Source of the DNA: Lacinutrix jangbogonensis
GTDB taxonomy: Bacteria > Bacteroidota > Bacteroidia > Flavobacteriales > Flavobacteriaceae
NCBI RefSeq assembly: GCF_000797445.1
Contig: NZ_JSWF01000020.1
Coordinates: forward strand, 1-64,000
Length of the DNA stretch: 64,000 nt
Direction: 5' to 3'
Each line of letters opens with the position of its first letter. The first letter of the stretch is position 1. Below are positions 11,219 through 27,336 of this stretch, piece by piece. Below the pieces are notes generated by a model. The model was not told where the DNA came from and searched no databases. It saw only the letters and a program-made list of their open reading frames with translations. A program made the translations under genes and the position numbers.

Positions 11219-12787
11219 CTATTGTTTTGCTTCTTCGCCGTCATCAGCCTGTTCTACTTGTATGTCTTCGACTGGTTTAAACAAATCTAAATAAGCCAAG
11301 CTTATACCATCTATTACATTACTTGCTATTATACTCTGGTAACCTAACTGTTCTATTAATATATCTGCACTTTTACCGTGTAAATACACGCCAAAAAGCG
11401 TGGCTTGTAATGGTTCGTATCCTTGTGAAACTAATCCTGTTATCATTCCTGTTAAAACATCTCCCGTTCCTGCAGTTGCTAATCCTGGGTTTCCTGTAGC
11501 GTTAACATATAACTTATCATCGAAAACAGTAATTGTATTTGCTCCTTTTATAACTACAATAACATTATACTTTTTAGCAAATGCTTTAGTTTTCTTTAAT
11601 TTATCGAAATCATTCTTCCATTTGCCTACTAGTCTTTCTAATTCTTTAGGATGCGGCGTTAAAATGGTTAATTCTGGCAATAAATTTAACAATGCTTTCT
11701 TTTTAGAGAGTATGTTTAAGCCATCGGCATCGATAAGTAAAGGCTTTCTGTTCGTTTTTAAAAACTTTTCTAAAGCAGAAACAGTTTTAGCATCTGTACC
11801 CAACCCTACTCCAACACCAATAACTGTTGGTTCTATATCGAAATCTATTTTAGTAATTTTCTCTTCATCTGTATCTGTAATTACCATAGCTTCTGGAAAA
11901 GCAGTTTGCAATGGTATATAACCACATTTTGGTATATAAGCTGTTATTTTCCCAGCGCCAACAGCCAAGACAGAGCGACTTGCTAATGTTACTGCTCCAA
12001 TTTTACCATAGCTACCTCCTACTATTAAACTGTGACCAAAAGTACCTTTATGGCTGTATTTCTCACGAGGTTTATAAATAGGTAATACTTCGTTTTTACC
12101 AATTAAATCAGCCTCAGTTGCTGTATTAATTAAATATTCTGGATCAATACCAATATCCAAAACTTCCCATTGCACAGAGTATTTTGCCGTTTCAGGTAAA
12201 AAGAACACTAATTTGGGAGTTTGAAAACTAAGCGTATAAGCAGCATTTACAACTGCTTCTGAATCGTCAACACCTTTATCTGTGTACAATCCTGAAGGCA
12301 AATCTATAGATAAAGTAAAGGCTTTAGTGATTCTAAAATAATTAAACAATCCTTTTACCCAAGCATGTACAGGACGATTTAAACCTATGCCAAAAACGGC
12401 ATCAACAATAATGTCTTTTTCATCAATTACAATTGAACTAAAGTCGTCTTCACAACTTAATAATGTTGGCCATTGTTTTGAAACATTCTTAACGCGATCA
12501 TAATTAATTAAAAAATCTTTAGAACGCTTAGCACTATAATTAACAACATAGGTATTAACATTATAACCATGTGTAATTAAATGCCTTGCTACTACTAATC
12601 CATCTCCTCCGTTATTACCAATACCGCAAAATACATGAATTGGTACTTGAGCACCTTGCATTCTTGTATGAATCCAATTAAAAATTTGAATTCCAGCCCG
12701 TTCCATTAGTTCGGTTGATGAAATTTTTTGTTTTTCTTGGGTTAGCTTGTCGCCTTCGTAAATTTGCTCTTTAGAGAATATTTTCAT
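11219..12787 (-). CDS. nnr: Bifunctional NAD(P)H-hydrate repair enzyme (epimerase + dehydratase)
   Basis: A 522-residue two-domain enzyme that repairs hydrated NADH and NADPH. The N-terminal YjeF/NAXE epimerase domain (1-215) interconverts the R and S hydrates and shows FCGIGNNGGDGLVVARHL. The C-terminal ribokinase-like NAXD domain (225-505) dehydrates the S form in an ADP-dependent reaction; it has FGHSLIVGGSYGKIGA and, near residue 445, the GTGDVLTGMITGL nucleotide-binding and catalytic-Asp motif. Length matches fused Nnr proteins. The tail after about 505 is acidic and specific to this sequence. It is convergent with the thioredoxin lipoprotein gene and divergent from thrA. Confidence 0.95.
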   Translation of the reverse strand: MKIFSKEQIYEGDKLTQEKQKISSTELMERAGIQIFNWIHTRMQGAQVPIHVFCGIGNNGGDGLVVARHLITHGYNVNTYVVNYSAKRSKDFLINYDRVKNVSKQWPTLLSCEDDFSSIVIDEKDIIVDAVFGIGLNRPVHAWVKGLFNYFRITKAFTLSIDLPSGLYTDKGVDDSEAVVNAAYTLSFQTPKLVFFLPETAKYSVQWEVLDIGIDPEYLINTATEADLIGKNEVLPIYKPREKYSHKGTFGHSLIVGGSYGKIGAVTLASRSVLAVGAGKITAYIPKCGYIPLQTAFPEAMVITDTDEEKITKIDFDIEPTVIGVGVGLGTDAKTVSALEKFLKTNRKPLLIDADGLNILSKKKALLNLLPELTILTPHPKELERLVGKWKNDFDKLKKTKAFAKKYNVIVVIKGANTITVFDDKLYVNATGNPGLATAGTGDVLTGMITGLVSQGYEPLQATLFGVYLHGKSADILIEQLGYQSIIASNVIDGISLAYLDLFKPVEDIQVEQADDGEEAKQ

Positions 12788-12912
12788 ATTTGGTTTCCGT
12801 AGTGTTAATTAGGTCTATAAAATCGTTCAATATAATTCAGCCCTAAGTGATTTATACACTCAAATTAAAAATTAAAGTGAATAAAATTCAGAATTATATA
12901 AAAATCATTAAT

Positions 12913-12920
12913 TAGTTTTG
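12913..12920 (+). promoter_or_regulatory. Candidate -7 box of thrA
   Basis: TAGTTTTG is an exact TAnnTTTG match 58 bp before the thrA ATG. No TTG lies at the ideal distance upstream. I saw no threonine- or isoleucine-rich leader peptide in the short leader, so classical attenuation is not evident. Confidence 0.4.
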
Positions 12921-12978
12921 TTATTCAGGTAAAAGTAATACATTTCACTATCATTTATAAAATAATAATTCAATACAA

Positions 12979-15423
12979 ATGCAAGTATTAAAATTTGGAG
13001 GAACATCTGTAGGTTCTTCAAAAAACATCAATAAAGTTATCACAATTTTAGAAAATTATTCTAAAAAAGATAAGGTAATATGTGTCGTTTCTGCTGTTGG
13101 TGGAATCACAGATAAACTACTCAAATCTGGAGACTTAGCTAAGTCTAATAATAAAAATTACAAAGCAGAATACAAGTTTATTAAAGCTAAACATATAAAA
13201 ATTTTAGAAGAGCTAATTCCGCAAAAGAACCTTACAATTGTTAATGCATTAGAAGGTAAATTAAAAAATCTTAAAAACCTTTTAGATGGTATTTTTCTAA
13301 TAAATGAGTTATCGCCTCAAACCTCAGATCGTTTAGTGAGTTTTGGAGAAATTTTATCTTCATTTATTATCGCTGAAACTCTAAAATCTAGAGGACTAAA
13401 CGCCTCTAGAAAAAACACGCAACAACTTATTGTAACAAATTCTAATTTCACGAAAGCTGAAGTTAAATTTACACCTACAAATACAAAAATTCAAAACTAT
13501 TTTAGTGACGCTACACAAGATATAACGATACTTCCTGGTTTTATTTCAAAATCTGAATTAGATGAGATTACAACGCTTGGACGTGGCGGTTCAGATTATT
13601 CTGCTGCTATTATATCAGCTGCATTAAATGTCGATAAATTAGAAATTTGGACAGACGTTAGTGGTATGTATACCACAAACCCTAAGCTTGTTAAACAAGC
13701 TTTCCCTATCGAACGTATTAGCTATAAAGAAGCAATGGAGTTGTCTCATTTTGGAGCTAAAGTATTATATCCTCCTACTGTTCAACCTGTTTTAGATTTA
13801 AATATACCAATCCATATAAAAAACACACTTAAACCTGAAGAAAAAGGTACTATAATATCTAATGAAGGCAACAAAAATTCTTCAACAGCAACAGGTATTA
13901 CCAATATAAATGATATTGCTCTATTAACATTGCAAGGCAATGGTATGGTTGGTGTTCCAGGTTTCTCAAAGCGTTTATTTGAAACTTTATCTCAAGAAAA
14001 AATTAATATTATATTAATTACTCAAGCATCTTCAGAGCATTCAATTTGTTTTGGAATTTCTAAAAATGATGCAATTTTAGCTGAAAACGCTATTAATCTC
14101 GCCTTCGAATATGAGATTTCAATGCACAAAATAGATCCTATTCTTGTGGAACAAAATCTTTCAATTATTGCTTTAGTTGGAGATAACATGAAAAGTCATC
14201 AAGGTATTAGTGGAAAAATGTTTAGCGCTTTAGGAAAAAATAATATTAATATTAGAGCTATTGCTCAAGGTGCTTCAGAAAGAAATATTTCAGCAGTAAT
14301 AGCAGAAAAAGATGTAAAAAAGGCTTTAAATACAATTCATGAGCGCTTTTTTGAAGACAACATAAAACAATTAAATGTATTTATTACCGGTATTGGCAAT
14401 GTTGGAGAAAAACTCATTGATCAAATTCACCAACAGCGTGATTATTTAAAAAAGAATTTAAAACTTGATGTACGTATTGTTGGTCTGTCTAATTCTAAAA
14501 AAATGGTTTTCAATGCTGAAGGAATCAAATTGGATAATTGGGCATCAAGATTTCATCATGCAGAAAAATCAAGTTTAAATGGTTTTCTAGATAAAGCTAA
14601 AGAACTTAATTTACGTAACAGCATTTTTGTAGATGTCACAGCTAATGAAGCAGTTTCAAAAATGTATGAGCATTACTTAAGGAATAGTATTGCTGTTGTC
14701 GCTTGTAGTAAAATTGCGTGCTCTAGTGCTTATAAGAACTATAAACTCTTGCAAGATCTAGCGCTTAAATTTAATACACCGTTTTTGTTCGAAACAAACG
14801 TTGGTGCAGGATTACCAATCATTAATACACTAAATAATTTAGTGTCTTCTGGAGATAAAGTAACAAGTATTCAAGCGGTACTTTCTGGGAGTTTAAATTT
14901 TGTATTCAACAACTTTAGTGATCGTACTAATTTTCATGATACGGTAAAACGCGCACAATTTGAAGGCTACACAGAACCAGATCCAAGAATTGATTTAAGT
15001 GGTATTGATGTGGCTCGAAAAATATTAATTTTAGCGCGTGAGAATGGTGGTAAAATGGAAATTGAATCTATTGAAAATGAATCATTTTTAACCAAAGCCA
15101 ATTTAGAAAGCGAATCTGTAGACGATTTTTATAAAACGCTTAAAACAGACGAAGCACATTATCAAAAACTATATGCTTCGGCAAAAGAAAAAAACTGCCA
15201 ATTAAAATACGTTGCAGAATTTAAAAAAGGAAAGGCTAAAGTTGGTTTACGCGAAATTCCTGAAGGGCATTCATTTTATAACCTTGAAGGAAAAGATAAT
15301 ATTGTTATGTTCTATACTGAACGCTATCCAGAGCAGCCATTAATAATAAAAGGCGCTGGAGCTGGAGCAGATGTCACTGCATCTGGTTTATTTGCAGACA
15401 TTATTAAAATTGGAAGTAAATAA
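12979..15423 (+). CDS. thrA: Bifunctional aspartokinase / homoserine dehydrogenase
   Basis: An 814-residue fused enzyme carrying out the first and third steps from aspartate to threonine. The aspartokinase domain (1-290) starts with KFGGTSVGSSKNI; GRGGSDYSAA is the substrate loop; two ACT domains (about 310-455) are the usual allosteric site for threonine. The homoserine dehydrogenase domain begins at the Rossmann motif FITGIGNVGEKL (glycines near 471-476) and has VLSGSLNFVFNNFS and GYTEPDPRIDLSGIDVARK. Length matches E. coli ThrA. The gene is intact, but its stop codon is directly followed by a decayed copy of the start of thrB, so the thrA-thrB operon link has been broken. Confidence 0.97.
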   Translation: MQVLKFGGTSVGSSKNINKVITILENYSKKDKVICVVSAVGGITDKLLKSGDLAKSNNKNYKAEYKFIKAKHIKILEELIPQKNLTIVNALEGKLKNLKNLLDGIFLINELSPQTSDRLVSFGEILSSFIIAETLKSRGLNASRKNTQQLIVTNSNFTKAEVKFTPTNTKIQNYFSDATQDITILPGFISKSELDEITTLGRGGSDYSAAIISAALNVDKLEIWTDVSGMYTTNPKLVKQAFPIERISYKEAMELSHFGAKVLYPPTVQPVLDLNIPIHIKNTLKPEEKGTIISNEGNKNSSTATGITNINDIALLTLQGNGMVGVPGFSKRLFETLSQEKINIILITQASSEHSICFGISKNDAILAENAINLAFEYEISMHKIDPILVEQNLSIIALVGDNMKSHQGISGKMFSALGKNNINIRAIAQGASERNISAVIAEKDVKKALNTIHERFFEDNIKQLNVFITGIGNVGEKLIDQIHQQRDYLKKNLKLDVRIVGLSNSKKMVFNAEGIKLDNWASRFHHAEKSSLNGFLDKAKELNLRNSIFVDVTANEAVSKMYEHYLRNSIAVVACSKIACSSAYKNYKLLQDLALKFNTPFLFETNVGAGLPIINTLNNLVSSGDKVTSIQAVLSGSLNFVFNNFSDRTNFHDTVKRAQFEGYTEPDPRIDLSGIDVARKILILARENGGKMEIESIENESFLTKANLESESVDDFYKTLKTDEAHYQKLYASAKEKNCQLKYVAEFKKGKAKVGLREIPEGHSFYNLEGKDNIVMFYTERYPEQPLIIKGAGAGADVTASGLFADIIKIGSK

Positions 15424-15580
15424 AAATATTTTTACCAGCAACTGTGTCGCAAACGTTTCCTGCGGATTTGATGTTCTAGGATTTTGTTAAGATACTTACT
15501 GTTTGGAGACGAAATGATTTTAAAAAACGATTGAAAAAGGTATAAAAACAACTAAAATTGAAGGTTGTGATTTGCCTTAT
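15420..15580 (+). pseudogene. Fossil 5' end of a second thrB
   Basis: Bases 15420-15580 align with the first 55 or so codons of the intact thrB (16181-16340). Disabling changes include a 2-base insertion near 15446, Leu TTA to TAA at 15488-15490, further small insertions after 15496 and loss of the start codon. In the 13 codons 15449-15487 the copies differ at five bases, all synonymous third positions, so the two copies diverged while both were functional. The fossil begins at the thrA stop codon, where thrB sits in a normal thrABC operon. Inference: it is the remains of the native thrB, displaced by a block carrying the Lrp-like gene and another thrB. Confidence 0.85.
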
Positions 15581-15582
15581 GG

Positions 15583-15598
15583 AATATTATAGAATATT
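15583..15598. repeat. AATATT-N4-AATATT element, 3' side of the Lrp-like gene
   Basis: AATATTATAGAATATT overlaps the stop codon of the Lrp/AsnC gene and differs at two of 16 positions from the element at its start codon (16046-16061). It may be a regulator-binding site or a boundary duplication; AT-richness makes chance possible. Confidence 0.4.
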
Positions 15599-16045
15599 AT
15601 TTACCCTTTCATTGTGCAAAACCATGGTAGTTTCGGTGCTTTGTATATAATCTAAAGTAGATAGTCTATCGAGAATAAAGCTCCTTAACTCATCAGAGTT
15701 TCTTACGCCAATATGCAAAATAAAATCATTGTTGCCTGCCATATGAAATAATTGAATAACACCATGGAATTGAGAGGCCTTTTCTATGAAATCTGCAATT
15801 ATTGAACGGTGTTGCTTGTTTAGCTTAATGGATAACATTACCTCAATATTGAGACCTAATTTTTTTTGATCAATTAGAGCAAATGCCCCTTTTAGATATC
15901 CTTTTTTGGTTAATTTCTTAATTCTATCGTGTGTGCTAGACTGTGCAATTTCAATCTTTGCTGCTATCTCTTTATTAGAGAGCCGTGCATTATTCAATAA
16001 TAGGCTCAAAATCTGAATATCTTTCGAATCTAGTTCGTCTTTCAT
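15587..16045 (-). CDS. Lrp/AsnC-family transcriptional regulator
   Basis: A 152-residue feast/famine regulator. Residues 1-60 form the winged helix-turn-helix (LDSKDIQILSLLLNNARLSN, then IAQSSTHDRIKKLTKKGYLK); residues 65-150 form the RAM ligand-binding domain (IEVMLSIKLN, GVIQLFHMAGNNDFILHIGV). Such proteins bind DNA as dimers or octamers and respond to amino acids. Its position between thrA and thrB, read opposite to both, with a promoter interlocked with that of thrB, suggests control of threonine synthesis and of itself; the ligand is not predictable. The ATG at 16043-16045 lies directly beside an inverted-repeat candidate operator. Confidence 0.93.
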   Translation of the reverse strand: MKDELDSKDIQILSLLLNNARLSNKEIAAKIEIAQSSTHDRIKKLTKKGYLKGAFALIDQKKLGLNIEVMLSIKLNKQHRSIIADFIEKASQFHGVIQLFHMAGNNDFILHIGVRNSDELRSFILDRLSTLDYIQSTETTMVLHNERVNNIL

Positions 16046-16061
16046 AATATTTTCGAATATT
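16046..16061. promoter_or_regulatory. Candidate operator AATATT-N4-AATATT at the Lrp-like gene start
   Basis: AATATTTTCGAATATT sits immediately before the ATG of the Lrp-like gene, inside its leader, where a bound autorepressor would act. A near-identical element overlaps the other end of the gene. Proposed from symmetry and position only. Confidence 0.4.
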
Positions 16062-16093
16062 TTTTGGTTTAACTAAAGTTTGACAGAATGTTA

Positions 16094-16124
16094 TTGTGCA
16101 AATATAAGTATTAATGTATTTTTG
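16094..16124 (+). promoter_or_regulatory. thrB promoter (TTG-N20-TATTTTTG)
   Basis: TTG at 16094-16096, a 20-bp spacer and TATTTTTG at 16117-16124 match both boxes and spacing of the Bacteroidota consensus. Transcription would start near 16130, giving a leader of about 40 nt to the thrB ATG at 16172. It means thrBC has its own promoter, separate from thrA. Confidence 0.65.
16099..16106 (-). promoter_or_regulatory. -7 box of the Lrp-like gene, interlocked with the thrB promoter
   Basis: The complement of CAAATATA is TATATTTG, an exact TAnnTTTG match, 54 bp before the regulator's ATG. It lies inside the spacer of the thrB promoter, so two polymerases could not occupy both at once. The -33 region has TTC instead of TTG. 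Confidence 0.5.
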
Positions 16125-16171
16125 TACGAAAATAATATAAATTAAAGACATTATAATTAGAACCTTTCAAA

Positions 16172-17092
16172 ATGAAAGAAATAAAAATATTTTCACCAGC
16201 AACAGTAGCAAACGTATCTTGTGGATTTGATGTACTAGGCTTTTGTTTAGATACTGTCGGAGATGAAATGGTTATAAAAAAGACGGTAGAGAAAGGTGTT
16301 AAAATAACTAAAATTGAAGGTTATGATTTACCATTAGAAACAAAAAAAAACGTTGCTGGAGTTGCTGCATTGGCTTTATATAATCATGCTAATCCAGATT
16401 GCGGGTTTGACATTGAAATCTACAAAAAAATCAAACCAGGAAGTGGAATTGGTAGTAGTTCTGCAAGTGCTTCTGGAGCTGTTTTTGCTTTAAACGAATT
16501 GTTAGGTAAGCCTTATAATAAAACCCAACTTTCTAACTTTGCTATGAAAGGTGAAGCTGTTGCAAGTGGCAGTGAACATGCAGATAATATTGCTCCTGGC
16601 ATTTTTGGAGGTTTCACTTTAGTAAAGAGTAATCAACCATTAAAAATACTAGAGTTACCTACTCCATCCAATTTATATGCAACAATAATTCATCCACAAA
16701 TAGAAGTTAAAACAGCAGAAGCTAGGAGTATTTTACCAAAAAATGTTCCTATGCAAGATGCCATCACACAATGGTCTAATGTCGGTAGTTTTGTTCATGC
16801 TTTACATACCAATGACTATAGTCTATTAGGCGAATCTCTGCAAGACGTTATTGTAGAACCTTACAGAAGTAAATTGATTCCTTACTTTAGTGAAGTCCAA
16901 AAAGCTGCTCTCGCCAAATCTGCTTTAGGTAGTGGGATTTCAGGTTCTGGGCCCTCTGTTTTTTCTTTATCAGAAGGAATAGAAACGGCAAAAAAAGTAG
17001 AAAAAGCAATTCAAGAAGTATATGCAAAAACAGGAATTGAATTTTACACATTCACTTCTAAAATTAATGCGGAAGGTATAAAAATATTATAA
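16172..17092 (+). CDS. thrB: Homoserine kinase
   Basis: A 306-residue GHMP-family kinase that makes O-phospho-L-homoserine from homoserine and ATP in the cytoplasm. The GHMP phosphate-binding loop is PGSGIGSSSASASGAVFAL starting at residue 89; the N-terminus IFSPATVANVSCGFDVLGF and the C-terminal glycine motif GSGISGSGPSVFSL are typical of ThrB. Length is normal. It is separated from thrC by 3 bp and has its own promoter upstream. A decayed partial copy of its 5' end lies behind thrA at 15420-15580. Confidence 0.97.
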   Translation: MKEIKIFSPATVANVSCGFDVLGFCLDTVGDEMVIKKTVEKGVKITKIEGYDLPLETKKNVAGVAALALYNHANPDCGFDIEIYKKIKPGSGIGSSSASASGAVFALNELLGKPYNKTQLSNFAMKGEAVASGSEHADNIAPGIFGGFTLVKSNQPLKILELPTPSNLYATIIHPQIEVKTAEARSILPKNVPMQDAITQWSNVGSFVHALHTNDYSLLGESLQDVIVEPYRSKLIPYFSEVQKAALAKSALGSGISGSGPSVFSLSEGIETAKKVEKAIQEVYAKTGIEFYTFTSKINAEGIKIL

Positions 17093-17095
17093 ACA

Positions 17096-18388
17096 ATGAA
17101 CTACTACTCACTAAATCATAAAGCACCAAACACATCATTTAAAGATGCAGTTATAAAAGGATTGGCTCCAGACAGAGGTTTATATTTCCCTGAAACTATA
17201 ACACCTTTACCACAATCGTTTTTTGAAAACATCGATAATCTTAGCTATTCTGAAATTGCTTTCGAAGCTATAAAACAATTCGTAAGTCCAGATATTCCCG
17301 AAACCATTCTAAAAACGATAGTAGAAGAAACCTTATCGTTTGAATTTCCAATTGTAAAGCTTAACGATAACATTTCGACTCTTGAGTTATTTCATGGACC
17401 AACAATGGCTTTTAAAGATGTTGGCGCGCGATTTATGGCACGTTGTTTAGGTTATTTTAATAAGAACAATGCAAACGAAGTTACTGTTTTAGTAGCCACT
17501 TCTGGAGATACAGGAGGCGCTGTTGCAAATGGTTTTTTAGGTGTTAAAGGCGTAAATGTGGTTATTCTCTATCCTAGTGGAAAAGTCAGTAACATTCAAG
17601 AAATGCAATTAACAACATTAGGACAAAACATAAAAGCGCTTGAAGTTGATGGTGTTTTCGATGATTGCCAAGACATGGTAAAACGTGCTTTTTTAGACGA
17701 AGAACTCACTAGTAAAATGCAATTAACTTCTGCTAATTCTATAAATGTTGCGCGTTGGTTGCCGCAACTCTTCTACTTCATGTTTGCCTACAAGCAATTA
17801 CATAAAACACATAATGAGCTTGTGTTTTCTGTACCAAGTGGGAACTTTGGAAACGTTTGTGCTGGAATGATGGCACAACAATTAGGTCTACCAATTAAGC
17901 ACTTTATAGCCTCTAATAACGAGAATAACGTTGTAACGCACTATTTAAAAACTGAGGATTATAACCCAAAACCATCTGTACAAACTATAAGTAATGCAAT
18001 GGATGTTGGGAATCCAAGTAATTTTATACGCATTCGCGAAATCTATAGAAATAACTTTAACGCATTAAAAAACAACTTGTCTTCTTATAGTTTTGGTGAT
18101 GCTGAAACTAAAGTAGCCTTAAAAGAAATTTACGACAACTATAACTACGTTGCAGATCCTCATGGCGCTGTTGGTTATTTAGGTTGTAAAGCTTACCTAG
18201 AGCATAATCCTAATGCACATTGTGTGTTTTTAGAAACTGCACATCCAACAAAGTTTTTAGATGTAGTTGAAGCAGTAATAAAAGTGAAACAAGACTTACC
18301 AGAGCAAATACAATCTGTAATGGGTAATAAAAAAGTAGCAACTCGTATTAGTAGTTATGAGGAATTGAAAGATTTTTTGTTGAAGTAA
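17096..18388 (+). CDS. thrC: Threonine synthase
   Basis: A 430-residue PLP enzyme (fold type II) converting O-phosphohomoserine to threonine, the last step of the pathway begun by ThrA and ThrB. The N-terminus YYSLNHKAPNTSFKDAVIKG is the threonine-synthase N-domain; the PLP lysine is Lys107 in GPTMAFKDVGARFMA; the phosphate-binding region is ATSGDTGGAVANGF. Length fits the longer ThrC class of Gram-negative bacteria. The gene starts 3 bp behind thrB and is co-transcribed with it. The base after its stop codon begins a decayed copy of part of a downstream gene (18387-18564). Confidence 0.97.
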   Translation: MNYYSLNHKAPNTSFKDAVIKGLAPDRGLYFPETITPLPQSFFENIDNLSYSEIAFEAIKQFVSPDIPETILKTIVEETLSFEFPIVKLNDNISTLELFHGPTMAFKDVGARFMARCLGYFNKNNANEVTVLVATSGDTGGAVANGFLGVKGVNVVILYPSGKVSNIQEMQLTTLGQNIKALEVDGVFDDCQDMVKRAFLDEELTSKMQLTSANSINVARWLPQLFYFMFAYKQLHKTHNELVFSVPSGNFGNVCAGMMAQQLGLPIKHFIASNNENNVVTHYLKTEDYNPKPSVQTISNAMDVGNPSNFIRIREIYRNNFNALKNNLSSYSFGDAETKVALKEIYDNYNYVADPHGAVGYLGCKAYLEHNPNAHCVFLETAHPTKFLDVVEAVIKVKQDLPEQIQSVMGNKKVATRISSYEELKDFLLK

Positions 18389-18564
18389 ATGGACGAAATG
18401 AAATCATCTCATTTTGTAGATGATTTTGTCGGATAGAGTATCAGAAAGGTTAGCCCTAAAACAAATATTTCGACAAGGTATTGAGCTAACACATCTAGTA
18501 CCGAAAACTATGTAAAGCAGCAAGTCCTTGGAGAATTTTAAAATAGGATTGGAAAAATTTAGGG
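18387..18564 (+). pseudogene. Decayed partial copy of the 19237-19739 gene
   Basis: Bases 18387-18564 align with 19412-19588. The first 28 bases after the thrC stop are identical to 19413-19440; after that many substitutions and stops appear (for example TAG inside GTCGGATAGAG) with matches continuing (AAACAAATATTT, TTGGAGAATTTTAAAATAGG). It is an internal gene fragment with no start of its own. Like the thrB fossil, it begins exactly at the stop codon of the preceding gene. Confidence 0.75.
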
Positions 18565-18712
18565 ATGTTTTTATTATTCGAAGCAAAAAAACAACTTAAA
18601 TGGCAAACCAAATTTATTTGATGCATGAGAACTAATGATTCAGCATCAAAAGGCACACACGAAAATAATTAAGTTCTAATCTTTTTTATAAAAAACACAA
18701 CATCAAATCAAG

Positions 18713-19227
18713 ATGACACCACGAAAACTTCAAGCAAACGAATCAAGTGAATATTTTAAACGCTATATTAATTTGGTGGAAACCTAAAATATTGTTGCTG
18801 CTTTAAAAAATCAACTCACAGATATCGAGCAGTTTTTTAGAGAATGGCCTAGAAATAGATGGGATCATGCCTACGCCGAAGGACAATGGACCATAAAAGA
18901 AGTCTTAATTCATATGATGGATGCGAAACGAATTTGGCCTATCGGGCGCTTCGTATTGCGCGAAACGATACGACGGCATTACCTGGATTTGATCAAGATG
19001 AATTTGCTCCTTTTATGAATGCACCTAATCGTTCTCCTGAATCCATTATGAGTGAATATCGAGCCGTTCGAATGGCAACAATTACTTTAATCGAAAATTT
19101 AGATCATGCAGTCTTGTCTAGGATTGGTACGGCAAGTAAAGCTCCAACTTCGCCCTTAGCGATGGCTTTTGTCATTGCAGGACATGAGATACATCACATG
19201 AATGTAGTTAGAGAAAAATATGTTTAA
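18713..19227 (+). pseudogene. DinB-family protein, broken by a stop and a frameshift
   Basis: Read in two frames this encodes a protein of about 171 residues of the DinB/DUF664 four-helix metalloprotein type: EGQWTIKEVLIHMMDAKRI in the first part and LAYRALRIARNDTTALPGFD then FVIAGHEIHHMNVVREKY in the second. The first metal-ligand His (LIHMMD) and the C-terminal HEIHH are both present. Lesions: TAA at 18785-18787 (codon 25, probably from GAA or CAA) and a one-base deletion near 18925-18935. Such proteins are thiol-dependent transferases or hydrolases of unclear substrate. Inactive as it stands. Confidence 0.85.
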
Positions 19228-19236
19228 TAATTAAAT

Positions 19237-19739
19237 ATGGACATAAATACAAAAGCAAATAGTATTCTTATCGCAATTCAAAACTTTGATTTTTAATAGG
19301 AAAATGGAATGTACAAAACAAAAAACTTAAAGAACGACTGAAAAACTGTAATGAATGGATTGAATTTCCCGCCAAAATGGAGACCAAACCATTTCTTAAT
19401 GGAATGGGTCTAATGGACGAAATGAAATCATCTCATTTTGGAAACAATTTTATAGGATTTAGTTTCAGAATGGTTAACACTAAAACAAATATTTGGAGAA
19501 TTTATTGGGCTGACACATCATGTCCAGAAAACTATTTAAAAGAGCAAGTGATTGGAGAATTTAAAAATGGGATTGGAGAATTTTATGGTAAAGAACTATA
19601 TCTAGGAAAAGAATACAAATTAAGGTTTACTTGGAAAAAGCAATCTGAAAATACTGCGCTTTGGGGACAAGCCTATTTTGATGAAAAAGTAAAAGAGTGG
19701 GAAACAAATTGGACAATGAAATTTATAAGAGAAAATTAA
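19237..19739 (+). pseudogene. Calycin-like (DUF1579-type) small protein with a frameshift
   Basis: The open frame from 19377 is only the distal part of a longer gene. Starting at the ATG at 19237 the frame reads MDINTKANSILIAIQNFDF and meets TAA; adding one T to the T run near 19292-19296 restores LIGKWNVQNKKLKERLKNC and joins the open frame through to 19739 (about 168 residues). The FDFLIGKWNV start and the later NTKTNIWRIYWAD are typical of small lipocalin/calycin-fold proteins that occur in many environmental bacteria; substrate unknown. A shorter product from the internal ATG at 19377 would lack the first strand. A partial decayed copy is at 18387-18564. Confidence 0.75.
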
Positions 19740-19884
19740 GTGCTAGATTTTACTCACCACAAAGTACTGTGTTAAAAAACAAGTAATTATTAATTTATAA
19801 CTTATATTTAAACAAGCTAACTTAAGATACATAAAGTCGATAGCATATATTTAGAAAACCATAACTAATCAAAAAATTAAAAAG

Positions 19885-20823
19885 ATGAAAACAGTTGGAA
19901 TTATTGGCGGTTCAGGCTTCATAGGAAGTCATACTACAAAAAAATTTTTACAAGAAGGGTTTAATGTTAAAGTATCAGCCACTGATATTTCTAAGACAGA
20001 AAAATACAGCCATTTAAAGAAATTACCGAATGCTGTAAATCTTGAAATTCTTCCTCTAAAAGTAGAAAACAAAAATCAACTAAAAGAATTCATTAAAGGA
20101 TGTGACATAGTTGTTCACGGCGGAACACCTTTTCAATTAGATGTTAAAGACCCAAAAACTGAATTGTTTGACCCAACAATTAAAGGAACGGAAAATTTTA
20201 TTGAAGTAATTAATGAAACACCTACGATTGAAAAAGTAGTATTTATAGCATCTGTCGCGGCATTCAACACAAATTTCCCATTGCCTCCGGGCAATAAGAG
20301 TCCTCACGATTCTGTGGATGAAAATGACACTCCATTTATGAGTGAAGAAAGTCATCCTTATGCACAAGCAAAATTTATTGCTAACCAGACAGTAGAAAAG
20401 TTTATAAACGAGCATCCGAGTATTGATTTTGAAATAACAACTGTTTCGCCTACGGGAGTAATGGGGAAATCTTTATCCAATAGAGAAGATTCAACTTCTT
20501 CAGGTTTACAGTTTTTATTTAAGAATAAAATAGCTCCCAATCCCTTTATACAAATGTTTTATGACAATGATATTGAATTTGCGTTGGTCGATGTTAAAGA
20601 CGTAGCTAATGGAATTTATAGTGCTTGTACTAAAAAAGGCTTACACGGCAAAAATTATTTATTAAGTAGCGAAAGTTGGAAAGTTTCCGATATTACCAAA
20701 ATGCTAAATAATGAAAAACCTAATGGAAGTGCTCACATTATTTATAAAAACGATGCTGCTATACAAGATTTAGGAATTAAATTTAATCCTGCTGTTATTC
20801 CACTGACTGAATTTAATAAATAG
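19885..20823 (+). CDS. NAD(P)-dependent epimerase/dehydratase (extended SDR)
   Basis: A 312-residue extended short-chain dehydrogenase. The N-terminal dinucleotide motif is GIIGGSGFIGSHT (GxxGxxG) and the catalytic YxxxK is in SHPYAQAKFIANQ near residue 155-160, with a Ser-rich strand VVFIASVAAFN before it. The closest known types are the dihydroflavonol-4-reductase-like and NAD-epimerase families acting on aldehydes, ketones or sugar nucleotides; the substrate is not readable. It is the only intact gene between thrC and 21.6 kb and is followed by a hairpin. Confidence 0.88.
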   Translation: MKTVGIIGGSGFIGSHTTKKFLQEGFNVKVSATDISKTEKYSHLKKLPNAVNLEILPLKVENKNQLKEFIKGCDIVVHGGTPFQLDVKDPKTELFDPTIKGTENFIEVINETPTIEKVVFIASVAAFNTNFPLPPGNKSPHDSVDENDTPFMSEESHPYAQAKFIANQTVEKFINEHPSIDFEITTVSPTGVMGKSLSNREDSTSSGLQFLFKNKIAPNPFIQMFYDNDIEFALVDVKDVANGIYSACTKKGLHGKNYLLSSESWKVSDITKMLNNEKPNGSAHIIYKNDAAIQDLGIKFNPAVIPLTEFNK

Positions 20824-20858
20824 AAAAAAAAGCCATCAAACTTTATCTATAATGGACC

Positions 20859-20883
20859 TATAATATTGAATATCAATATTATA
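20859..20883 (+). terminator. Hairpin behind the SDR gene
   Basis: An 11-bp perfect inverted repeat (TATAATATTGA, loop ATA, TCAATATTATA) 36 bp after the stop, followed by ATTTTAAAT. It is AT-only apart from two base pairs and the T run is short, so termination is plausible but not certain. Confidence 0.4.
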
Positions 20884-21032
20884 ATTTTAAATAGACAAAT
20901 TAATCAAACGGAAATTAAGTGCTTTGAAATCCAACACTAACCTTAGGCAACTCGTTGAATAAGGTTGAATACAACACGGAATAGTTTTGATATACTTAAT
21001 GGAAACTAACCATTAGTTAATATTATAACATT

Positions 21033-21519
21033 TTGAAAACAACAGTAATTGGTTTAGTGATAATTAGAAGTATATTCTATGGTTGTTCAGAAAACAATAG
21101 ATCAATAGACGAACTTGAAGTTATTGATAATAAGTAAAGTGATTTTAGAAGTGAATATTGCAACTATTACTAAAAAAGACAAGTTTTCTAAGTATAAATG
21201 ACTTATCGAAAAACTTAAAAACTCTAATGAACAAAACAATGTGATTATAGAAAAAGAAATTGAAACTATTACTGGAAACTAGGACGATAAAAGCAACACA
21301 ATTATAGAAAATCTAGAAACTATTACCAAACAAAAGAAATTCAACTAATACAAACTACTTATAGAAAAGTTGAAAACTTCCAAAAAACAAAATACGGTTG
21401 TTCCTATTTTAGAAAATGAGCTTGAAACTATCACTAAACAAAAAGTAAGATAGATTCTAACCGAATTAAAAACAATCTTAAATAAAAAAGGTAATACAGC
21501 CTGCGTATATAACAAATAG
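21033..21519 (+). pseudogene. Decayed repeat-rich coiled-coil lipoprotein
   Basis: From TTG at 21033 a lipoprotein signal is legible (LKTTVIGLVIIRSIFYGCSE) and ends at TAA 21135. One frame over, from 21139, a single frame continues to about 21519 and encodes imperfect repeats of about 34 residues: the unit (I)ETITKQKKFN-YKLLIEKLK followed by TSKKQNTVV recurs two to three times. This frame is crossed by TGA, TAG, TAA, TAG and TAG, several at equivalent repeat positions. The charged heptad-like pattern suggests a surface coiled coil. No intact relative exists in the window, and I do not recognise the family. Confidence 0.7.
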
Positions 21520-21640
21520 AAATTAACGAAATACACTTCTAAATTGCAGATTATCTGTGCTTTCATAAACTAATTCCTCTACTCTGTTTTACGCTTGAGA
21601 TTAGTATTTGTTTTGCTATTCTATTCTTTTACACAAGCTT

Positions 21641-24600
21641 TCAATACCCTTTAGATTTTAAATGCTCTTGATAACCATCAGATAGTTTTTGTGCTCTATT
21701 TCTTAAGTCGTCTTGAACACTTTGTGGTAATAATCTCAGGTCAATTAAAGTAATGTCCATTTTAAACAGTGTATTGTATGCTAACTTTGGATTCAAGAGG
21801 TACAAACTATGAAAATAGTCTGTAGTTTTTTTAATTAGCGCATCTCCAGATGTATTTTTACGCTCTTCCACATACAACGTTGTAATGTACCTTGAAATAC
21901 ATTTTGCGTCCTCCTTACATGCTAGAACCGTTTTCATTTGTGACTCGGAAAAGTTAGTAACAGTTGTCGAATTTTTGGTATTAGAAATTGTTAAAGTATT
22001 AGATTTTGTAGTCTTGCCTTCTAGTTGTCCATCAATAAAATTCCCAGCTTCATACTTGTCTTTTGCATAATACCGAACACCTTGTCCGTGCCTTTTTCCA
22101 TTTTGGTAAAAGCCCATATAGTAATCAAACTCCGATGTTGTATAAGTACCTAATCCGTGATAATCTCCATTAGAAAATTCACCTAAATAGTCACCGCCAC
22201 TTGTAAAAAACAAAAAGCCAAAACCATCTCTTTGACCGTTTATAAATGTCCCCATATAGGTAGAATTATCATATTCATAAATTCCAATACCATTACTACA
22301 ATTCCCAACAACACATTTACTATTAGCATTATTTAAAAGTTCTTTTTTAGAAATCACTTTTCCATTACTGTAATTCAATTTATAGGTTTTCTTTGTAATA
22401 TAATCGTTATAAAAACCAATGTTTTTAGATTTATCTGTAAATATCATTAAATTGGAACCATTGTATTCATAAGAGAACCCTTCTTGATCTTGAAACGAAC
22501 CTTTGAAAACCGTTAACGTACTTTTCTTATCCTTCTTACTTGACGTATGAATTGGACCATTAACTTTTCCGTCTTTAAAAAAACCATGTGCTTTCATGCC
22601 ATCTTTAAATTCTTTTTCTCCATAACCATCTTGGCAATCACCATTTACACATTTTCCAGTATAATACTCTGAATACTCATCTAGACTTTTAGCTAATTTT
22701 TTTGCGCTATCTGTCATGGTATCACTTCCTGTTGGATTATAATCACTGTATAATGTTACAGGATATGGCGTATCTATTTTTACTGTAGTATAATTTTCTA
22801 AAGCAACTTGTTTTAGCTCGTTTTCGCCTTTAAAAATGACATCTTTTTTATTTGGTGCAAATTTATAAATATCAATTTTTTTAATATAAGTTCCATCACT
22901 TCGAAACACATGAACGCTTCCTTTTTCAGTTTTATACCAATACCCGTTTTTAATATTAATTGTTGTTTTTTTTGCAGGAAAATTTTTCCCTTCTGGCTTA
23001 TCTTCAAAATCCTCAAAAACAAATAATTGACTAGATATTTTATGAAAAACCAATAAACTTTTACCCATAAAAACAGAAGAAGTATTCAAAGCTTCTTGTT
23101 GATTATTAATAGAGAATAAATAACTTGAAGCTTCTGTTTTTTTCCATGTTGCATTTTCAGAAAACGAAGATGTTTCTAGAGCTCTAACTTTTTTCCTCAA
23201 AGAAACAAGTTCGTTTTTTACTGTATTAATATCTGTAGTACCGGTTACTTCTCCATTGCTATAAATAATTTCTCGTAATGTTGGATTTGGAAAACTAGGA
23301 ACTCCTTTTGCTATGCTCATATCTAAAAGTGATAAAGAGATAATCCAGTTTCCGTAGGTATCATAAGCATAAACATATGTTCTTGTCGTTGTTGTAGTAT
23401 TTCTTTTACTACTTTCTTCTGAAACTTCTATTTCTCCATTTAAGTTATATTGGTATGAACTGACGTAAAGAAAAGACTCTTCTTTAGTAAGTTTATTATT
23501 GCTGTTATAAGTGTAAAATCTTTCTGAAGGTACATCATTGTTATAATTGGTAACTATTTTCTGAACTAGATTGTTTTCTGAATAAAACTTCTGAAACGTT
23601 GAACCACTAGAGATATAACCATAGTCAGTCTTTTCAAATGCTTGCTTAGAGCCTTTAGCATCACCATCATAAAGAGTTGTAAAGTTGAAATTACCGTTTA
23701 TTTTGTACTCGAAACTTTTTTTATGACTAAATGAAGCACTGTTATAATCGTAAATCATTAGTTTCCCAGCCTTATTATAGGTGTAACTTTCTACTGTAGT
23801 CTTGTTGTTATAAATTAAAGATGAAGATTTAATTTTTTTGTTTTTTGTATCAAAAACTGTCGTTCGATTTCTTTCTAATTCAGAGCTAATGTCTTGACTT
23901 CCTCTTTTTGGTCTTTGATCATATTGCTTTTCATTAATTTGTTTTGGAATTATGTTTCCAGCTCCAATTTTATAATTAAAATCTTCAACAAGATCTGTGT
24001 TTGGAATTTTATAAATCTCTTTTTGAATGTCTCTTTTAACCACTTTTGGTGGAACTTTATTGTCAATCAATTCAGAATACAATCCATTTCTCAATTTTAT
24101 AACCAAAGCTTTGGTTTTGCCATCTTCTAGATTAATTGAACCCGTAATATCGCCATTACTATATTTTATTTCTCTAACCTGAAATGAAAATTCACCTCCA
24201 AATAAATGTGTTTTTGTTTTATTTCCACTATAATCTTTGTCCGACGTTGCTAGTTGATATGCAATAACCCAGTTTCCATACGCATCGTAAATGTATTTGT
24301 AATGTCTTGTCATACGGTCTTTATCGACTTCTTTTTCTATTACATTGTTTTTATTGAGTTGATAAGTGTATGTATAAGTTCCTTTATCTTGATACTTTAA
24401 AAAACCACTGTTATTATATTGATAAGATTCTGTATACGTTTTATTGGCACTTTTATTAAATGTTATTTTTTGAGTAACTAAACCCTTTTTTAAAATGTAA
24501 GTGTGTTTACCATTATCAAAATCGTTTTTAATAGAATTACTGTCTGTAATGTATTTGATAAGCTTAGTTTTTCCTTCACGCGTTTCCTTGGTCTCTTTAA

Positions 24601-25045
24601 GCGAACCTCTACTATCAAATTCATAAGTAGTTTCTTGTCCACCTTCTATTTCTCCTGCTCTTGTAGCGTTACTTTTTTGGGTTTTAAGAAAGCCTTTAGT
24701 ATTATAAGTGTAATAAAAATTAAACCCATTTTGCTTAATATATTTATTGCCATAGTTATATAAAGTTCCTCTTTTTGTTAATAAGGTATCTTTAAAAGTT
24801 AAAGTCTCTGTGCTATAGTCATCTTGTAAATAAGAAAATTTATGTCCTACAATACTGTATCCATAATCTGTATAAGTTGAATTAGAAACTGTGACAGGGT
24901 TTATATTACCACTTCCAATTTTTAAATTGAAATCTTTTACCAAATTTGTATTTGGTAACTGAAGAATATCTTTTTGAGTCTTTACTTCTTGGGCAAAAAC
25001 GGGCATAACAAAAAAGCAATGGAATATTAGAAGAAAACGTTTCAT
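21641..25045 (-). CDS. Large secreted MORN-repeat protein with duplicated YD-like N-terminal module
   Basis: A 1134-residue exported protein (signal peptide MKRFLLIFHCFFVMPVFAQ). Two homologous N-terminal modules start at about residues 25 and 340: QKDILQLPNTNLVKDFNLKI then IGSGNI, and QKEIYKIPNTDLVEDFNYKI then GAGNI. Each is followed by short YD/RHS-like beta repeats (YTYNTKGFL, YQYNNSGFL, YKYIYDAYGNW). A C-terminal region (about 790-1030) holds MORN repeats (NGDCQDGYGEKEFKDGMK, YMGTFINGQRDGFGFLFF, YLGEFSNGDYHGLGTYTT). No enzyme motif or type IX sorting domain is visible. MORN repeats bind lipids or proteins; here probably an envelope or surface scaffold. Neighbours upstream on the same strand are also secreted repeat or SH3 proteins. 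Confidence 0.85.
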   Translation of the reverse strand: MKRFLLIFHCFFVMPVFAQEVKTQKDILQLPNTNLVKDFNLKIGSGNINPVTVSNSTYTDYGYSIVGHKFSYLQDDYSTETLTFKDTLLTKRGTLYNYGNKYIKQNGFNFYYTYNTKGFLKTQKSNATRAGEIEGGQETTYEFDSRGSLKETKETREGKTKLIKYITDSNSIKNDFDNGKHTYILKKGLVTQKITFNKSANKTYTESYQYNNSGFLKYQDKGTYTYTYQLNKNNVIEKEVDKDRMTRHYKYIYDAYGNWVIAYQLATSDKDYSGNKTKTHLFGGEFSFQVREIKYSNGDITGSINLEDGKTKALVIKLRNGLYSELIDNKVPPKVVKRDIQKEIYKIPNTDLVEDFNYKIGAGNIIPKQINEKQYDQRPKRGSQDISSELERNRTTVFDTKNKKIKSSSLIYNNKTTVESYTYNKAGKLMIYDYNSASFSHKKSFEYKINGNFNFTTLYDGDAKGSKQAFEKTDYGYISSGSTFQKFYSENNLVQKIVTNYNNDVPSERFYTYNSNNKLTKEESFLYVSSYQYNLNGEIEVSEESSKRNTTTTTRTYVYAYDTYGNWIISLSLLDMSIAKGVPSFPNPTLREIIYSNGEVTGTTDINTVKNELVSLRKKVRALETSSFSENATWKKTEASSYLFSINNQQEALNTSSVFMGKSLLVFHKISSQLFVFEDFEDKPEGKNFPAKKTTINIKNGYWYKTEKGSVHVFRSDGTYIKKIDIYKFAPNKKDVIFKGENELKQVALENYTTVKIDTPYPVTLYSDYNPTGSDTMTDSAKKLAKSLDEYSEYYTGKCVNGDCQDGYGEKEFKDGMKAHGFFKDGKVNGPIHTSSKKDKKSTLTVFKGSFQDQEGFSYEYNGSNLMIFTDKSKNIGFYNDYITKKTYKLNYSNGKVISKKELLNNANSKCVVGNCSNGIGIYEYDNSTYMGTFINGQRDGFGFLFFTSGGDYLGEFSNGDYHGLGTYTTSEFDYYMGFYQNGKRHGQGVRYYAKDKYEAGNFIDGQLEGKTTKSNTLTISNTKNSTTVTNFSESQMKTVLACKEDAKCISRYITTLYVEERKNTSGDALIKKTTDYFHSLYLLNPKLAYNTLFKMDITLIDLRLLPQSVQDDLRNRAQKLSDGYQEHLKSKGY

Positions 25046-25179
25046 AATTATTCATTTTTAGTGTATTACAAATTAATTGAATACTATGACATGAACAAAT
25101 ACGACGTTCTGCGTATTTTTAGGTGAAGATAAAGTCTAGGATTTCATTGAAACAAGCAGCAGAAAAGTGTGAAAAATTA

Positions 25180-26613
25180 TTACTTAGGCTCAATCTTACT
25201 TAAATAGCTGTCAAACACATAACCAATTTTATCGTCGTTATAAAGTATTTTACACCAACGACCAATTACAGTTCTGTTATTAGATTCTTTTAAATGAAAG
25301 TCTATTTTAGATCTTGCTATTATTCTCACTTTTGCTTTATAATCTAGTGTTTCTAGTCGCTCGGTAAAACCAGGTTTTCTTCTAACAGACAATCCGTTTT
25401 TAGCCGTAACATAGGCAACATAACCAGTTATATCTTTTACAAATTGGTTATTTTTATAATCGTAAACTTCTTCAATGTCGTAAAACTGAGTAGTTTTACC
25501 TTCTTGGTCGTCTGTATCTGCATCGTAAAATGTTTCATTGCCAATTTTATTAATAATTATCCTATCGTAAAAACCACCTTCAGAACTTGGAATCTTAAAA
25601 ATTTCATCTGCCATATAACTATGTGAATAGTCACTTTCTGTATTTCCGCCTTCACTTTGTGTATAAAGTTCGTTCACTAAATTGTTGTTTTTTGTATAAC
25701 CAAAAAGCATATTACTGTAACGGTAACCATCCCAAGTTTCACCCAAACCATTATTGGTTATTTCAACCAAAGCTGCAACATTAGTAAAAGAAACATCTGT
25801 GTATGTAGCTTTTATTTCATTTGTATTATAAAGCGTTTCGATATACTTTTCGGGTGCTTTAAGTGTATTAGAATCGACAATAGTTCCCTTTTTTCGTAAG
25901 TTAGATTTATAAATACTTTTTCTCCAATTGTATTTTGTTTCTTCTATGCTATAAGTATAATCTGGATTTTCGAAAGTGTGTTTAAATACTAAGGCTTTAA
26001 TAGGGAATATTTTTTGTTCTCTTAATACGCCAGTTCCTAAAACCTCTAATGTTTTAGTTGTATTGGACAATTCTGTGTTCGTCTTTTTATTTATAATTAC
26101 GCTATTATAAACCAATGCCGTATCTTTTACTATTAAGGTGTTTTTTACAACTTGATCGGATTGAAATACAATAGGATCGTCAAGTTTTATAAATTTTTTA
26201 TTGCTATGTCCAATAAGTAAATCGTAAGTAGAACCATCTTCTAGTTTAAAGGTTATTAAACCTACTTCGGTTTTAGCTTCTTGAAAAACAACAGGTTTTA
26301 TAGATTGAAAATCTTGTTTTAATATAACCTGAGGATTGCATTGCTCGAAGAGTTTGCGTAAAAATATTTTATCTATTATTTTTTTATTATGTTCAAGATA
26401 TAAACTTAAAGAACAATAGTTGTTTTGGTGATTAAGTCTTGAAATAACAAGGTTTAAACTGTCTTCTGTTTTAAACTTAAAACGTATCATTCCTTCAATG
26501 GGAACAAACTGATGCTCCTTATTTACCGAGCCTCTAACATCTGAACTAGTGTCATCTTTACAGCTTGTAAATACAAACAAAATGATGAAGAGTGTTATTA
26601 AAAAGTATTTCAT
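25180..26613 (-). CDS. Lipoprotein with C-terminal bacterial SH3 domain
   Basis: A 477-residue lipoprotein: MKYFLITLFIILFVFTSC, with Cys18 as the likely lipid anchor. The central 370 residues are beta-rich and not recognised. The last 80 residues form an SH3b domain: VAYVTAKNGLSVRRKPGFTE, then a basic strand and GRWCKILYNDDKIGYVFDSY, the typical start and end of a domain that binds peptidoglycan or cell-wall peptides. It starts 5 bp behind the 182-residue YwqK-like gene, so the two form an operon; the MORN protein gene follows after 134 bp. Likely an envelope-anchored binding protein; no hydrolase domain is attached. Confidence 0.85.
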   Translation of the reverse strand: MKYFLITLFIILFVFTSCKDDTSSDVRGSVNKEHQFVPIEGMIRFKFKTEDSLNLVISRLNHQNNYCSLSLYLEHNKKIIDKIFLRKLFEQCNPQVILKQDFQSIKPVVFQEAKTEVGLITFKLEDGSTYDLLIGHSNKKFIKLDDPIVFQSDQVVKNTLIVKDTALVYNSVIINKKTNTELSNTTKTLEVLGTGVLREQKIFPIKALVFKHTFENPDYTYSIEETKYNWRKSIYKSNLRKKGTIVDSNTLKAPEKYIETLYNTNEIKATYTDVSFTNVAALVEITNNGLGETWDGYRYSNMLFGYTKNNNLVNELYTQSEGGNTESDYSHSYMADEIFKIPSSEGGFYDRIIINKIGNETFYDADTDDQEGKTTQFYDIEEVYDYKNNQFVKDITGYVAYVTAKNGLSVRRKPGFTERLETLDYKAKVRIIARSKIDFHLKESNNRTVIGRWCKILYNDDKIGYVFDSYLSKIEPK

Positions 26614-26618
26614 CGTTA

Positions 26619-27167: not shown

Positions 27168-27253
27168 TTAATCTTAGATTATTTCTAATAAAGTCGAAAA
27201 TTAATCATAAAATTTGAGTCTAAAAAATTAACCCATTTTTAAACTGAACGCCA

Positions 27254-27286
27254 TTGAAATCAACTCAATATTTTTCTATACTTTTG
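27254..27286 (+). promoter_or_regulatory. gcvT promoter (TTG-N22-TACTTTTG)
   Basis: TTG at 27254-27256 and TACTTTTG at 27279-27286 (exact -7 consensus) with a spacer slightly longer than usual. Predicted start near 27293 and a leader of about 45 nt. I saw no glycine-riboswitch structure in that leader; it is too short for one. Confidence 0.5.
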
Positions 27287-27336
27287 TTTTACAAGTTTTA
27301 AAAAATTCCGCTTGACGGTAAATAAATATATTTTCT

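Follow-up and report, generated by a model that had tools for sequence, protein, structure and literature searches.

Gene swaps within operons are mostly inferred from trees, and Omelchenko and others reportedly described xenologous gene displacement in situ and the resulting mosaic operons in 2003. In homology-facilitated illegitimate recombination (PMC3240628, PMC5361080), one end of the incoming DNA is homologous while the other is illegitimate. PMC5361080 proposes an akin process for displaced module genes with remnants beside the newcomer, and calls that process rare. Here we describe a threonine operon of Lacinutrix jangbogonensis that has kept the dead end of a displaced gene where it stood, so that the order of events and the type of joint can be read. 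The DNA analyzed, hereafter the window, is a stretch of 64,000 nucleotides (contig NZ_JSWF01000020.1, positions 1 to 64,000). The locus is probably a xenologous gene displacement which preserves its own scar, the resident thrB having been replaced by DNA carrying an asnC-type regulator, a promoter region and a thrB like that of genus g168.

Layout and flanking genes

The operon runs in the order thrA, a decayed 5' piece of thrB, a Lrp/AsnC-family gene on the opposite strand, intact thrB and thrC. Pfam and NCBIfam identified thrA (12979..15423, forward strand) as a bifunctional aspartate kinase/homoserine dehydrogenase I (NF006959, 1026.5 bits), and the other intact genes as a Lrp/AsnC-family protein of 152 amino acids (asnC, 15587..16045, reverse strand), a homoserine kinase (thrB, 16172..17092, forward strand) and a threonine synthase (thrC, 17096..18388, forward strand). 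The thrB fossil (15420..15586, forward strand) covers about codons 4-56, carries indels and stops, and runs on its left into the thrA stop and on its right into the asnC stop. A divergent promoter region of 126 bases (16046..16171) lies between asnC and the intact thrB. A sequence-only reading of this DNA had claimed a damaged thrB copy, an opposite-strand Lrp/AsnC gene and an intact thrB, and all three were found where it had placed them.

In the 12 other genomes of the genus which were examined thrA-thrB-thrC was uninterrupted (split layout 1/13), and each had a thrB at the position of the fossil. A split layout common to close relatives, which the sequence-only reading had said would indicate simple old paralogy, was thus seen in 0/12. 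Together with the fossil, the thrB genes of these relatives indicate that a resident orthologue was once present and was then lost. The block is flanked by genus-type thrA, thrC and further neighbours on a single contig of 67,392 bases, and the upstream genes and thrA are clearly native and syntenic. The contamination estimate of the assembly (4.54%) and the foreign thrB would both fit an artefact in which reads of two strains were joined within the operon, but this is very unlikely in view of the genus-type genes on both sides, the decay of the fossil, which is hence not the gene of a second strain, and an asnC-promoter-thrB order that recurs in six other genomes.

The thrA protein was 87-90% identical to those of six genus members and 77% identical to those of two g168 genomes (G179, G360). 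AU tests of thrA accepted genus-core monophyly and rejected a grouping of the window with g168 (1.5e-6), and by these comparisons thrA is native to the genus. For thrC, amino acid identity was 91-92% to four genus members and 87-89% to g168, dS was 0.77 to G011 and 1.21 to G179, and AU accepted both genus-core monophyly and a g168 grouping (0.32). On identity and dS, the best reading is that the genus has always had this thrC and that it was not replaced along with the regulator and thrB.

Rfam returned nothing at gathering threshold over 12600-16300, and so no curated leader or attenuator lies there. Promoter and terminator scans gave 22 matches vs 25.9 in shuffles and 1 vs 2.9, respectively, and neither was counted as evidence. 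The sole terminator-like site lay inside the 3' end of thrA, under the shuffle expectation, so transcription may read through from thrA into thrB.

The thrB fossil and the intact thrB

When compared with the intact thrB protein, the fossil matched residues 5-61 (E 9e-14) with four stops, the end of the match already lying inside asnC; with a 56-residue query it matched residues 5-54 (E 2.9e-15) with three stops. No third thrB copy or other piece of the resident thrB was found in a search of the genome. As the sequence-only reading had reported, 13 codons at 15449-15487 (16208-16246 in the intact gene) contain five base differences, all synonymous, and the translation is identical. Over 154 comparable bases there were 27 differences, which fell at codon positions 1, 2 and 3 in numbers of 5, 5 and 17. 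Eleven of the 27 were found only in the fossil among genes of the W type, by which we mean the thrB type found in genus g168 and also in G012, a member of the genus of the window, and these were spread over the codon positions (3, 5, 3) as expected of neutral decay. The remainder were mostly third-position changes, so the two copies diverged mostly at a time when both still functioned, which bears out the earlier claim that both had been under selection before one died.

Third-position differences between the fossil and the intact copy (17/51, or 14 without the fossil-unique changes) were of the order seen between the window's thrB and those of G179 (13/52) and G012 (17/52); by this measure the divergence is on a between-species scale and hence old. 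It therefore counts against duplication within the genome, in which thrB was doubled in tandem, the first copy decayed, and asnC and its promoter came in between the copies as a separate step, since both copies would have had to remain functional over species-scale time. Such a history would account for the W-type look of both copies and for the differing sources of asnC and thrB, and the sister placement that it predicts was not rejected, either when the fossil was placed on the full thrB tree (AU 0.47) or in a tree test on the 154 bases (AU 0.48), in which 0/10 trees were rejected. However, its likelihood weight on the full tree was 0.03, and variable sites common to the fossil and one W gene only favoured G360 (5) and G012 (2) over the intact copy (1), with none for G179. 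We regard duplication as unlikely; recent sisterhood of the two copies, which the sequence-only reading had named as evidence against replacement, was opposed by the divergence and left standing by the AU test.

The fossil was 83-86% identical to four W-type thrBs and 73-81% identical to 22 others, and in sequence it most resembles the W type, unlike most of the genus. The sequence-only reading had proposed comparison with the native thrB of relatives; descent from the ordinary thrB of the genus was disfavoured by identity, but a constraint with five ordinary-type members (AU 0.076) fell short of formal rejection. When the fossil (154 usable bases) was tried at 43 positions in the full thrB tree, 29 of the best 30 were not rejected, and approximately one third of the likelihood weight lay outside the W clade of this full-length tree.

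The intact thrB protein was 90% identical to that of G179 and 88% to that of G360, with 88-90% across the six of seven g168 genomes that matched. AU tests of thrB rejected genus-core monophyly (4.7e-5) and accepted window plus g168, in conflict with the trees of the operon neighbours thrA and thrC; the expectation that thrB would group apart from thrA was thus confirmed. By identity and topology the intact thrB is foreign and g168-like. Bases 1-600 grouped with g168 (97%) and, inside g168, with G179, G412 and G416 (90%), while the grouping of the last 318 bases did not resolve. MaxChi placed a breakpoint after base 648 (P 0.0095), and parent-vs-parent Fisher tests at base 600 gave 0.12, 0.83, 0.72 and 0.025. 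From this modest signal the gene looks chimeric, with a breakpoint near base 650, the 5' ~600-650 bases being g168-like and the rest apparently from another W-type sequence.

The regulator, its promoter region and related cassettes

The regulator has the N-terminal HTH and C-terminal ligand-binding domains of the Lrp/AsnC (feast/famine) regulators (Pfam HTH_24, AsnC_trans_reg), but differs from these in that it reaches the NCBIfam equivalog cut-off of no listed member (AsnC, 74.7 of 227 bits), and so is neither AsnC nor Lrp proper. Its closest solved sequence was 4pcq (E 9e-25). An asnC-thrB-thrC divergon is rare and was found in six other genomes, including Bizionia saleffrena. The likeness of the window to these cassettes lies in the regulator (82-91% amino acid identity; dN 0.04-0.08, dS 0.44-0.98, values by which it is under purifying selection), in a homologous promoter region and in gene order; the window differs in that its thrB and thrC stem from lineages other than those of the cassettes, and in having the unit within a thrA-thrB-thrC operon. 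Alignment of the promoter region scored better than 500/500 shuffles against five of the six cassettes and 492/500 against the sixth. An imperfect inverted repeat, TATTTTTGTACGAAAATA (16117..16134), had the top inverted-repeat score of this alignment (0.683; column mean 0.345, sd 0.086) and is a candidate operator, although significant in no single sequence (P 0.12 for the window alone). It overlaps a TAnnTTTG element for thrB (16117-16124; exact match in 3/7 sequences), and a similar reverse element for asnC lies at 16099-16106; we take these to be -7-like promoter elements of the two genes.

The thrBs (100%) and thrCs (99-100%) of the cassettes formed clades without the window's genes, which ruled out a joint origin of asnC, thrB and thrC from a Bizionia-like cassette. 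Between the window and Bizionia dS was 0.44 for asnC vs 1.78 for thrA, and to the Bizionia cassette 1.51 for thrB and 1.27 for thrC, so only asnC and the promoter region have a recent history in common with that cassette. On these distances the regulator and promoter region are foreign but drawn from another pool than thrB, and the block is composite. The sequence-only reading had proposed replacement by one inserted block, with thrB and the regulator both apart from thrA: the resident thrB was replaced, thrB is foreign and the control region imported, but the single source did not survive. No genome with asnC ahead of a g168-like thrB was found, which leaves the donor block hypothetical, and asnC of the window type was present in 0/7 g168 genomes, a set without positive control. 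No relative of the regulator was confirmed among viral contigs, and the best plasmid match was 35.5%.

The differing closest relatives of asnC/promoter and of thrB would suit two separate events, a thrB double crossover from a g168-like donor followed by entry of an asnC-promoter fragment through the conserved thrB start. The first bases of thrB are near-identical in all sources and offer a ready crossover tract, and thrB swaps without a regulator also occur within the genus. This course would nevertheless require more steps and a further source for the duplicate 5' piece, as a piece from the same allele would begin identical to the intact copy, contrary to the old synonymous divergence, and we consider it improbable.

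Two other genomes (G214, G162) have thrB relics of independent origin behind thrA; in these two and in the window thrA is separated from thrBC, and a piece of the first ~50 thrB codons is kept. That this piece is retained because it serves some purpose, such as that of a 3' element following thrA, is suggested by the threefold occurrence but is hardly credible: the pieces bear stops, indels or an altered start codon, the fossil-unique changes of the window are spread over codon positions, and thrB is well conserved at its 5' end, which may bias detection towards that end. thrB has been swapped repeatedly in these bacteria. It is possible, though doubtful, that asnC and its promoter form a mobile control module which moves among flavobacterial genera and repeatedly captures thrBC, fusing to any thrB, freeing thrBC from thrA and leaving a thrB stump. 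The window, where the module landed in the operon, and an Ulvibacter MAG, with the module elsewhere and a stump behind thrA, would then be independent outcomes.

Probable displacement history and known systems

For the displacement which we favour, the starting state would be thrA-thrB-thrC with a resident thrB already of the W type, and the incoming DNA would comprise the Lrp/AsnC gene, the divergent promoter region and a g168-like thrB, perhaps integrated in a single event. The right joint would be homologous recombination within thrB near base 650 of the gene, which may be the cause of the chimera. On the left, thrB similarity stops at 15576-15585, depending on the partner, beside the asnC stop codon (15587-15589), and in a 3'-end alignment of seven loci asnC homology begins at its stop, adjoining the fossil. 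At this junction (15580..15589) the asnC 3' end meets thrB at about codon 56 with few matching bases, a non-homologous joint, presumably made illegitimately. The middle of the resident thrB would have been lost, its first 55 codons remaining as the fossil. Codons 1-3, including the start codon, are missing from the fossil; G012 carries AAATAAAAA both at the end of thrA and within codons 3-6 of thrB, 83 bases apart, and a deletion between such short repeats may later have removed the start codon. At present thrA would be transcribed from its own upstream promoter and thrBC from the imported one, with the AsnC-type protein most likely binding between asnC and thrB, repressing itself and tuning thrBC to an amino-acid signal.

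The comparisons indicate that thrB, a gene of an essential pathway, has passed repeatedly from one genus to another and that its neighbours in the operon have not, and in several flavobacteria threonine synthesis may come under the control of a regulator-thrBC unit. We found no description of an asnC-thrBC unit in the literature searched, in which coverage of subscription journals was thin. The proposed homologous thrB end, suggested by a modest breakpoint signal, together with the illegitimate end at the asnC stop would resemble homology-facilitated illegitimate recombination. As in xenologous in-situ displacement, one gene of a conserved operon was swapped for a foreign orthologue and the neighbours keep the history of the genus, but here the front end of the displaced gene is kept and the regulator and promoter of the newcomer split the operon. 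In-situ gene displacement is a known kind of event, and the window is a fresh variant of it and not a new type of system.

Organization of the threonine locus

The window is part of the 67,392-base contig 20 of the L. jangbogonensis genome (G000). The thrA stop codon (15421-15423) is followed by the decayed front end of a thrB gene (the fossil), which runs up to the stop codon of asnC, an Lrp/AsnC-family regulator gene on the opposite strand (15587-16045). A divergent gap of 126 bases separates asnC from an intact thrB (16172-17092), and thrC lies at 17096-18388. This order of fossil, regulator and intact thrB had been described in the sequence-only reading and was confirmed; the match of the fossil to the protein encoded by the intact thrB had E 9e-14, and the five synonymous changes claimed for 15449-15487 were exact on recheck. 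Thirteen genomes of the genus were compared including our own, and the 12 others all carried an uninterrupted thrA-thrB-thrC with a single thrB and no regulator between (in one of them, G003, the thrA frame is broken and the thrC match shortened).

A second stump was observed directly 3' of thrC (18388-18599), pairing with 19412-19623, 1024 bases on. It comprises 177 bases at 82% identity with stops, a decayed front piece of a small unknown gene (19377-19739), and a DinB-like frame without the front of its domain lies between stump and intact copy, so that the fossil-insert-intact order is common to this stump and thrB. From thrC to the gene at 27337 there are approximately 9 kb in the window (18389-27336; DinB remnant, epimerase-like gene, protein of 1134 aa matching the MORN repeat) versus less than 1 kb in the genus member G012.

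Origin of the intact thrB and of the fossil

Protein identities between the window and five genus members (G012, G011, G001, G002, G007) were 88-90% for thrA and 89-92% for thrC; for thrB they were 85% with G012 and 71-73% with the other four. Against two members of another genus, g168 (G179 and G360), thrA was 77% identical and thrB 90 and 88%, and a thrB match at 88-90% was found in six of seven g168 genomes, one match being cut by a contig end. In AU tests on trees of 18 sequences, genus-core monophyly was rejected for thrB (4.7e-5) and accepted for thrA (0.66) and thrC (0.55). Trees grouping the window with g168 were accepted for thrB (0.56) and also thrC (0.32); for thrA they were rejected (1.5e-6). 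The window and G012 as sisters were rejected for thrA (0.046) and thrB (0.021) and not for thrC (0.085). We read thrC as native to the genus from its identity and dS (0.77 to G011, 1.21 to G179), bearing in mind that AU also accepts its grouping with g168.

Full-length thrB DNA from the window clustered inside g168 with G179, G412 and G416 (90%). The first 600 bases gave 90% for this group and 97% for g168 as a whole, and the last 318 bases formed a long branch with no placement. Identity to G179 in 120-base steps was 88-92% to base 660, then 80, 72, 77 and 87%; the breakpoint given by MaxChi follows base 648 (P 0.0095), with mixed results from direct parent-contrast tests. Judged by these comparisons the intact thrB is foreign and, with moderate confidence, a chimera.

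The fossil differs from the intact copy at 27 of 154 comparable bases (5, 5 and 17 by codon position). Among thrB genes of the W type (that of g168 and G012), 11 changes occur in the fossil only (3, 5 and 3), a spread that looks like decay, and 7 in the intact copy alone, of which 6 are third-position. With the four W-type genes tested the fossil has 83-86% identity, and with the 22 others 73-81%; it shares five variable sites with G360 alone, two with G012, one with the intact copy and none with G179. On the full-length tree its likelihood weight was 0.163 for the stem of window plus g168, 0.155 each for G012 and the W stem, and 0.068 each for G298 and a stem including G298. About one third of the weight lay outside W, and 29 of the best 30 of 43 placements were not rejected. 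Duplication within the genome, raised earlier as the alternative origin of the two thrB copies, is unlikely; attachment of the fossil to the intact copy received a weight of 0.03. Replacement of a resident thrB is supported, the thrB tree conflicting with that of thrA (AU); the relatives bear this out in layout, none of the 12 sharing that of the window.

Exchange of thrB recurs, several swaps between lineages being indicated by the sequences. Between genus members G007 and G002 identity is 94% in thrA, 95% in thrC and only 78% in thrB. Trees grouping G007 with G011, G001 and G002 were accepted for thrA and thrC; for thrB this grouping was rejected (AU 0.0018). G182, from another genus, has the G011 thrB type (thrB 85%, thrA 76%). 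Across G007 versus G002 and G011, thrA/thrC identities were 92-97% and thrB 78-80%.

Regulator, promoter region and cassette

Five close asnC homologues came from one scan of genome contigs and a sixth (G199) from a genome search (82-91% amino acid identity). The others are Bizionia saleffrena and MAGs labelled Dokdonia, Flavobacteriales, Saprospiraceae (doubtfully binned, contig of 4,457 bases) and Ulvibacter; G311 and G374 were taken as G210 (Bizionia) and G212 (Flavobacteriales) from identical contig coordinates. In all six, asnC diverges from a thrB-thrC pair (the cassette), and thrA was absent from the fetched stretches, two of which extend at most 1 kb beyond asnC. The cassette carries the sole thrC match in four of the six (G199, G211, G212, G214), the MAGs being perhaps incomplete. 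Bizionia saleffrena carries an intact cassette in addition to an intact thrA-thrB-thrC (loci L086 and L088). A search at E 1e-45 found the regulator in four family genomes out of 397, ours included, and in one class genome out of 395 (our own; the samples overlap). None of seven g168 genomes had a match, in a set without a positive control.

Between the window and Bizionia, dS was 0.44 for asnC and 1.78 for thrA; comparison with the cassette copies of thrB and thrC in Bizionia gave 1.51 and 1.27, respectively. These values indicate that in the window cassette history is limited to asnC and the promoter region. The promoter region scored above all 500 shuffles against five cassettes and above 492 of 500 against the sixth (Ulvibacter), and asnC homology gives out at the boundary with the fossil, at most a few bases from the asnC stop codon. 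In the one cassette pair compared, Bizionia and Flavobacteriales, dS of all three genes agrees (0.34-0.37); elsewhere the whole cassette apparently moves together. The proposal of a single-source block of regulator, promoters and thrB was not supported, asnC and promoter lying near the cassettes and thrB near g168; on this evidence the regulator source is different from that of the intact thrB.

Proposed replacement, present working and parallels

Most likely, a single molecule carrying asnC, promoter and a g168-like thrB came in, with a crossover inside thrB at the right end and illegitimate joining at the left. A one-step event of this kind would account for the survival of no more than the first 55 resident thrB codons, for the native thrC and for the chimeric look of thrB. 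The fossil's start codon was probably lost by deletion between AAATAAAAA repeats, which are still present, 83 bases apart, in G012.

At present thrA would be transcribed from its own promoter, for which a TAnnTTTG match at 12913, presumably the -7 promoter motif, is a candidate element; the imported region would drive thrBC and asnC. There an inverted repeat (16117-16134) overlapping the thrB -7-like element is a candidate site; it had the top score over seven aligned regions, being significant in no single sequence, and the -7 match is exact in three of the seven. A natural guess from the family is that the effector would be threonine or a related amino acid.

Two other genomes carry thrB 5' relics behind thrA, independent of that in the window. 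The Ulvibacter MAG (G214) retains residues 4-47 with one stop (L087:3166-3358), followed behind thrA by an ORF that we take, by eye, to be gcvT-like, and its only thrC match is inside the asnC cassette on another contig than thrA. G162 retains residues 7-54 with ATA at the start position (L153:4360-4500), and its intact thrBC is on another contig without asnC alongside. Two thrB 5' matches were found in 3 of 327 family genomes with a match (G000, G162 and G311, both open in the last), a count that weaker relics would escape. A process similar to the one proposed here has been suggested for displaced secretion-module genes, and was noted there as rare (PMC5361080).
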